NCBI GenBank assembly: GCA_902577515.1
Contig: CACGZJ010000007.1
Location: 1 to 64,000, forward strand
Length of the DNA: 64,000 nucleotides
DNA from: an uncultured Bacteroidota bacterium
Lineage (GTDB): Bacteria; Bacteroidota; Bacteroidia; Flavobacteriales; Flavobacteriaceae
Direction: 5' to 3'
Part shown: positions 39,581 through 40,877 of the stretch, in pieces
Layout of the letters: every line of letters begins with the position of its first letter
Position numbering within the stretch: the first letter of the stretch is position 1
The notes under the pieces: generated by a model
Told to the model about the DNA's origin: nothing
What the model saw: the letters and a program-made list of their open reading frames with translations, nothing else
Databases searched by the model: none
Program-made: the position numbers and the translations under genes

Positions 39581-39594
39581 AATTTAATATTAGA

Positions 39595-39666
39595 GGGCAA
39601 TGGAGGACTCAAACCCCCATCTGAAGAGCCGTAATCTTCTGTTCTATTCAGTTGAACTAATTGCCC
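39595..39666 (-). tRNA. tRNA-Arg(ACG)
   Basis: Cloverleaf on minus: acceptor GGGCAAT/ATTGCCC, D stem GTTC/GAAC, anticodon arm GAAGA-TTACGGC-TCTTC, T arm GGGGG-TTTGAGT-CCTCC. Confidence 0.85.
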
Positions 39667-39674
39667 ATTTCATG

Positions 39675-39682
39675 CAAAAATA
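39675..39682 (-). promoter_or_regulatory. -7 element TATTTTTG for tRNA-Arg
   Basis: Minus-strand TAnnTTTG 8 nt upstream of mature 5' end. Confidence 0.5.
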
Positions 39683-39757
39683 TATATATATAACGAGATT
39701 AATAATTAATCTAGATTAAAATTTAATATCTTAGTTATGATTTAAAAATTTATTAAG

Positions 39758-39823
39758 ATGGATTGTAACTGCGTGAAATGTAATTGTACAAATAATTGCG
39801 ATTGTACTTGTTGCAATTGCTAA
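39758..39823 (+). CDS. Putative 21-aa cysteine-rich micropeptide MDCNCVKCNCTNNCDCTCCNC
   Basis: ATG..TAA, 9 Cys of 21 residues; not in supplied ORF track; followed by a terminator-like hairpin + T tract. Confidence 0.5.
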   Translation: MDCNCVKCNCTNNCDCTCCNC

Positions 39824-39857
39824 AAAAACAAATTTAAGTAATTGATAATCAATCTCT

Positions 39858-39899
39858 TACTAAAAGTTATTAACAATTTAGTATTTAAGGTTTTTTTTT
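39858..39899 (+). terminator. Putative intrinsic terminator after the Cys-rich ORF
   Basis: Stem TACTAAA (39858-39864)/TTTAGTA (39877-39883) then T tract at about 39891-39899. Confidence 0.45.
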
Positions 39900-39924
39900 C
39901 TCAATTATTTTTTTACATTTACAT

Positions 39925-40105
39925 AAGTAAGTGAAAGAGACGGAAAAATTCGCCGTAACGTTCAAAGCGAAAGCAGAGATTAAACTTACAAAACTCTAAA
40001 CATTAAAAAGTAGTCAAATTAACTACTATTTGAAATAAAATTCAATCGTGAGTAGAGAATTAGAAAGCCTGGCGCACCTAGTGAGTCAGGCTTTCGAATT
40101 TTATA
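39925..40105 (+). ncRNA. Candidate structured non-coding RNA of unknown class
   Basis: No plausible ORF; TACATTTA (-7-like) at 39914-39921; helices 39927-39932/39984-39989, 39940-39943/39953-39956, 40009-40014/40022-40027 and a long 3' hairpin 40058-40100 followed by TTTTAT. Confidence 0.45.
40058..40100 (+). terminator. Long near-perfect hairpin AATTaGAAAGCCTGGCgCAC-CTA-GTGaGTCAGGCTTTCgAATT; terminator or RNA 3' domain
   Basis: 4+11+3 bp interrupted only by single mismatches; triloop CTA. Confidence 0.65.
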
Positions 40106-40118
40106 AAACTTTTGATAG

Positions 40119-40877
40119 TTAATTAATATTATGCATTTTAGAGTATGATTTATATGGTAGATCAATAAGTGAAATAATTTCAAAGATTTTTGCTTCAGAT
40201 ATTATTTCAATACTGATTGATAACTCATTATCTACTATTAAAAAATCTCCTGCATTATAAGTTTCTTCTTTTAATTTGATGATTCCTGATTGTATAAAAA
40301 TTGAGTGGAATCTATCTTTATATATATCATGGACATATTTACCTTTAGATAATTTATGCTGATATATCTCAATAGACTCAGACTTTAAATCTATTTGATT
40401 GTTAATGTCCGAAATAATTTTTGTTTCCTTTAAATCCTGCTTTCTAATAGAAAAGTTATCTGATTTATAGTCGCTGTATTTTGCTTCTTCATACAAAGAT
40501 TCGTTAAGATTGGGATCAAACCATATTTGAAATATCTCAGAACCTTTTTTTAATTTTTCTGAATGAGATATTCCTTTACCTGCTTTAATAACCTGAACAT
40601 CACCTTCTTTAAGAGTTATCCATCTATCTAAAAGAGTGTCATAATGCTCAATTTCACCCTTTAGAACAAAACTACATATTTCAAATCCTCTATGAGGGTG
40701 AAGACCTATGACACTGTCTTTTTTTGACGCCCAAGCATGAGCCCAGTAGAATAAATTAGAATATGGTTTTAAGATACCTCCATCATGAGGGAATCCAATT
40801 GGTTTTTTTTCAAGAATTTCATCTCCATTAAAATTACCATTAGCCTGATTATCTTTCTTAAAAATTGTAATAGCCAT
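40119..40877 (-). CDS. Pirin family protein
   Basis: GLHPHRGFEICSFVLKGEIEHYDTL, GDVQVIKAGKGISHSE, FQIWFDP. Confidence 0.9.
   Translation of the reverse strand: MAITIFKKDNQANGNFNGDEILEKKPIGFPHDGGILKPYSNLFYWAHAWASKKDSVIGLHPHRGFEICSFVLKGEIEHYDTLLDRWITLKEGDVQVIKAGKGISHSEKLKKGSEIFQIWFDPNLNESLYEEAKYSDYKSDNFSIRKQDLKETKIISDINNQIDLKSESIEIYQHKLSKGKYVHDIYKDRFHSIFIQSGIIKLKEETYNAGDFLIVDNELSISIEIISEAKIFEIISLIDLPYKSYSKMHNIN

Follow-up and report, generated by a model that had tools for sequence, protein, structure and literature searches.

A 21-residue peptide with nine cysteines, MDCNCVKCNCTNNCDCTCCNC, is encoded by an unannotated open reading frame (ORF) in the 64-kb stretch of flavobacterial DNA that was analyzed here (the window). 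Sequence comparisons indicate that this ORF is genuine and conserved and that its cysteines, in their exact spacing, are under purifying selection. We consider it likely (probability about 0.7) that the peptide is a stand-alone micropeptide of the cytosol that holds metal through its thiolates, in the manner of a minimal, single-domain metallothionein; from the features described below, we infer both its translation and its metal binding. The ORF had been read by a first-pass annotation, and its letters are exactly as claimed (Table 1). The cysteine spacing, C-x-C-x2-C-x-C-x3-C-x-C-x-C-C-x-C, was matched only once when both strands of the window were scanned and in 0 of 100 dinucleotide shuffles of the window, in keeping with the earlier statement that such a pattern is unlikely to arise by chance. 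A family profile search found a single copy of the peptide in its own genome. The annotation had also held that no plus-strand gene follows and, indeed, no plus-strand ORF of ≥60 aa occurs before the minus-strand pirin gene at 40119-40877.

Table 1. Positions of the micropeptide ORF and of the features that flank it in the window.
Feature	Position	Strand	Remarks
tRNA-Arg (ACG)	39593..39666	-	Always next to the peptide in the genus; shown for context, outside the peptide gene
Divergent intergenic region, tRNA-Arg (-) / peptide (+)	39667..39757	.	Likely to hold the promoters of both genes
Micropeptide ORF, 21 aa, nine Cys	39758..39823	+	ATG...TAA; conserved at 18/18 orthologous loci; Cys codons change at the third base only
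Non-coding block AAAGTTATTAACAATTT	39863..39879	+	After the peptide; near-invariant, 97% identity in the genus versus 59-61% in surrounding sequence

The host genus comprises small-genome flavobacteria in which the peptide is fixed at one chromosomal place. The exact nine-cysteine pattern was present in 18 of 25 genomes of the genus, counting the peptide's own, and the reversed pattern was matched in none of the 25. Gene order was the same at all 18 loci, i.e., a CaCA-type antiporter gene (-), the divergent tRNA-Arg(ACG) gene and the peptide (+), followed by pirin (-) wherever the contig extends far enough. Since the seven genomes without the peptide also lack the antiporter, the locus is probably unassembled in them; all nine cysteines are kept in 18/18 orthologous loci, which is to say in every genome with the locus assembled. 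One member of the genus is deposited as Cryomorphaceae bacterium SI034_bin14 (JABGTW010000040.1). Pairwise differences between genomes at the cysteine codons numbered 498 at position 3 and 0 at positions 1 and 2, and each of the nine codons occurs as both TGT and TGC. At the remaining codons, 555, 451, and 802 differences were counted at positions 1, 2, and 3, respectively, reflecting free variation of these residues. Start and stop codons are conserved in 17 of 18 relatives and also in phages; in genome G004 the frame begins with ATA instead of ATG. Loss of the frame or replacement of its cysteines in relatives, which the first-pass annotation had named as evidence against the gene, was therefore not seen, the one ATA start apart, and the synonymous bias that it had suggested looking for is confined to third positions. 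The orthologous-locus count and the half-pattern scans described below are the less biased figures, as the pattern itself was used to find the loci behind most of the other counts. At 12 of the 18 loci, a conserved 119-aa ORF ends ~24-30 nt before the peptide; it lacks a clear Pfam match and is modeled, with low confidence, as all-helical. Because this ORF is missing from the window genome and five others, it was rejected as an obligatory partner of the peptide.

Within the divergent intergenic region, the plus strand carries TATCTTAG at about 39728-39735, one mismatch away from the flavobacterial -7 element TAnnTTTG, and it is by comparison with the Bacteroidota consensus that the region is taken as the probable promoter of both genes. 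Downstream, the AAAGTTATTAACAATTT block may be an operator or an upstream element of the RNA that follows. It overlaps a TACTAAA/TTTAGTA hairpin (39858-39864 and 39877-39883) that, with a T tract at 39891-39899, had been proposed as the peptide's own terminator, ending a discrete short transcript. All of these letters are present; however, the fold showed no extra stability over shuffled sequences (z -0.3 to -0.5) and relatives do not preserve the ends of the stem, so that the proposal was not upheld. A strong terminator hairpin (z -5.7 versus shuffles) lies at 40063-40095, ~200 nt past the peptide, and it ends a structured RNA candidate at about 39922-40105 (+). For this candidate, 47 pairs were predicted over eight genomes, 19 of them with compensatory double changes; it has hairpin loops of the AAAATTA type, is preceded by AAAGTTATTAACAATTT and TAnnTTT promoter-like motifs, and had no match in Rfam. 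It is probably a gene separate from the peptide.

The peptide is also encoded by viruses. Using the forward pattern on IMG/VR with TGT repeats filtered out, we found at least 191 viral loci with a stand-alone peptide ORF of 20-23 aa, comprising at least 127 distinct peptides in at least 99 gene-neighbor contexts, near-duplicate contigs included. These numbers indicate that selection acts on the peptide as such. Since the raw pattern also matches TGT repeats in other genomes, matches were filtered for varied non-cysteine residues and short, stand-alone frames; a control pattern yielded none after the same filter, and a TGT-repeat artifact was accordingly rejected. Reversed spacing followed by a stop codon matched 26 stretches across the whole of IMG/VR, with no genuine peptide among them. 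In scans that fixed just the first half of the pattern (MKC[ND]CxxCxC), 70 of the 73 distinct ORFs among the matches listed carried the complete second half and 67 ended exactly at residue 21; only two single-cysteine variants, Cys to His and Cys to Tyr, occurred among the matches listed in the half-scans. The phage consensus is MKCNCKVCNCGTSCDCTCCNC, and one viral contig (L225, minus strand) encodes an extended peptide with an additional N-terminal cysteine block, MRNRQNCNCENCKCQKACNCMKCNCSKSCDCACCDC.

In the commonest phage context, a T4-type terminase large subunit is encoded 2-4 kb downstream of the peptide. Its best isolate match is from Flavobacterium phage immuto (59% identity), to which a second frequent neighbor is also closest (75%). 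The peptide-carrying phages look T4-like and, judging from these two gene similarities, are probably phages of Bacteroidota. No cultured phage that was tested encodes the peptide: it is missing from immuto, which has two small membrane-like ORFs at the site instead, and from Microcystis phage Mel-JY01, Rhodothermus phage RM378, Melnitz, HTVC008M, and C48C1. Two uncultured huge-phage records lack it as well. Downstream phage neighbors belong to at least 57 families. Two of these are the commonest: a COG2509-like FAD dehydrogenase, at no fewer than 42 loci, and a zinc-ribbon-like protein of 163 aa, at no fewer than 30. The predicted fold of the FAD protein resembles VP0956 (3nlc) and phage COG2509 proteins to which no function is assigned. 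In phages, the gene immediately before the peptide often has a start like MKRVLSYNEFVNES or MKHIKLFEQYINEA, which we take to be reminiscent of the capsid-targeting sequences of T4 internal head proteins. A different phage group, represented by at least seven viral contigs, has an 11-aa ORF with six cysteines, M[KN]C[DE]CC[NS]C[TN]CC, in four versions, mostly located after a Shine-Dalgarno-like sequence and before a gene for a small membrane protein; this is possibly an even smaller, putative metal-binding peptide.

Among bacteria, the peptide's own genome was the sole match in 396 sampled genomes of the phylum, and 400 genomes of the family gave matches only in the same genus and in a second one, g266. 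In g266, 2 of 22 genomes carry the peptide, at two different places, and both copies adjoin a tRNA gene; such tRNA-side places would fit horizontal acquisition in the past. In these copies the peptide's stop codon directly abuts the ATG of a small ORF (TAAATG), which encodes either a 79-aa, cysteine-containing, lipoprotein-like product or a 44-aa membrane product. Recent prophage insertion in the bacterium is unsupported, as the locus is syntenic throughout the genus and the residues differ from those of the phage versions: the site that is mostly G-x-S in phages is T/N/Q/D-[KN]-S in the bacterial peptides.

The composition of the peptide had already been likened to that of metallothioneins, and the larger set of sequences agrees with this description. 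Nine of the 21 residues are cysteines, arranged in CxC, CxxC, and CC motifs, and this register is invariant in 146 distinct peptides. The other residues are N, S, K, D, T, G, and E, with few V, Q, and I; F, W, and Y do not occur at non-cysteine positions in any of the 146. The first cysteine is preceded by one to three residues, and there is no leader, signal peptide or hydrophobic core. A metallothionein-like buffer is favored because the geometry of nine thiols is the sole fixed feature, which is how metallothioneins are built. The unfolded peptide would present its thiols in this fixed register and, upon binding d10 ions such as Zn(II), Cd(II) or Cu(I), would wrap into a single cluster, for which the stoichiometry favors M(II)3Cys9 or several Cu(I). 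Metal could thereby be buffered or stored, and thiol-reactive species trapped; in this view, the peptide is a vertically inherited chromosomal gene in the flavobacterial genus and a small accessory gene in T4-like phages. The Cys to His variant keeps another metal ligand in that position. Against this reading stand the Cys to Tyr variant, since tyrosine is not a typical metallothionein ligand, and the lack of a constant neighbor coding for a metal transporter or regulator, the CaCA-type antiporter being on the other strand and beyond the tRNA gene.

A further point against the metallothionein-like reading is that a role in Fe-S binding or redox chemistry would yield much the same conservation. 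The thiols could conceivably ligate an Fe-S cluster or serve as an electron and thiol partner, perhaps of the phage FAD dehydrogenase, whose rank as the commonest downstream neighbor speaks for this view. However, most phage contexts and the bacterial locus lack that enzyme, and its family alignment contains no invariant CxxC redox pair, Cys252 being the only invariant cysteine. To our knowledge, the nine-cysteine CxC/CC pattern resembles no known Fe-S motif, and we regard this role as unlikely. Less likely still is a disulfide-rich or enzymatically modified peptide, i.e., a RiPP core, a bacteriocin or an inhibitor of a host enzyme. Such peptides are likewise small, rich in cysteine, and found in phages, but disulfide pairing is disfavored by the odd number of cysteines, the lack of a signal or leader ahead of the first cysteine, and the cytosolic location. 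Aromatic residues are lacking and hydrophobic ones are scarce; moreover, neither the bacterial locus nor the recurrent phage neighbors examined include a constant modifying or export gene. With neither a leader nor a recurrent maturase at these places, the peptide was not assigned to the RiPP precursors.

The very dense run of cysteine codons ahead of a conserved non-coding region also brings to mind a leader peptide through whose translation the supply of cysteine would govern a downstream gene. The first-pass annotation had thought a cysteine attenuator unlikely and we concur, placing it below the readings above: no cysteine or sulfur gene lies downstream on the same strand within the window, the hairpin is not significant and no antiterminator structure was found, the genes that follow the peptide in phages are of at least 57 different families, and a leader would not need a fixed, indel-free register of residues. 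That the ORF is untranslated, being a chance frame or a purely nucleic-acid element, is scarcely credible. The ATA codon in G004 points in this direction, but the restriction of cysteine codon changes to third positions and the retention of start and stop codons in the other 17 relatives and in phages speak against it, and a chance ORF is rejected by the shuffles and the reversed-spacing control.

Taken further, the metallothionein-like reading leads to a broader proposal, for and against which we see about equal weight: the 20-23 aa peptides would form a new metallothionein family, the smallest known and the first to be widespread in phages, serving T4-like phages as an infection gene that controls host metal or thiol chemistry and having a fixed chromosomal counterpart in flavobacteria. 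If metal is bound, the natural size limit of metallothioneins would drop to 20-21 residues with nine ligands, and genes for metal buffering, dropped by annotation pipelines because they are so short, would be common in T4-like phages. Phage handling of host Zn and Cu during infection would then be directly testable with a cheap synthetic peptide. More generally, register-conserved cysteine patterns recover gene families that are invisible to Pfam and PHROGs; the earlier reading of the window had missed the phage reservoir, the structured RNA next to the peptide, and the occurrence in a second bacterial genus.

Searches of Pfam, PHROGs, NCBIfam, PDB, and INPHARED (tblastn) gave no match to the peptide, nor did PF02069, a 21-aa query having little power in such comparisons. 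The PF02069 profile, which did match the Synechococcus elongatus control, identified no protein in any of the genus's 25 genomes. The mammalian metallothionein beta domain uses nine cysteines for three divalent ions, is rich in CxC, and has no aromatic residues; it differs from the peptide in being part of a eukaryotic, two-domain protein of ~60 residues, in its cysteine spacing, and in lacking a CC pair. SmtA, BmtA, and PmtA (PF02069) are, like the peptide, prokaryotic and cytosolic, with Cys-thiolate clusters of the kind predicted here, but they are at least about twice as long (the Pfam model has 51 positions) and have His ligands and a zinc-finger fold (PMC7387436, PMC10612145). The metallothionein of Pseudomonas fluorescens Q2-87 forms a Zn3Cys9His cluster, which makes three zinc ions on nine cysteines chemically reasonable (PMC7387436). 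The Cu-thioneins of Neurospora crassa and Agaricus bisporus, once regarded as the shortest metallothioneins, have 26 residues and seven cysteines spaced CxC-x5-CxC-x3-CxC-x2-C (PMC4755600). They resemble the peptide in being very short, single-domain, cysteine-rich, and CxC-based, with no folded core; however, they are eukaryotic and have no sequence link to it, and its 21 residues and nine cysteines (CxC-x2-CxC-x3-CxC-x-CC-x-C) are spaced differently, so that it does not belong to the Neurospora type. In the open-access papers that we consulted, a partial coverage of the literature, no phage metallothionein was described. Given this, the lack of a PF02069 match and the non-fungal spacing, the peptide is best regarded as metallothionein-like and as representing a new family, whose likeness to the known metallothioneins is, as far as sequences can tell, one of composition and motif type and not of homology.
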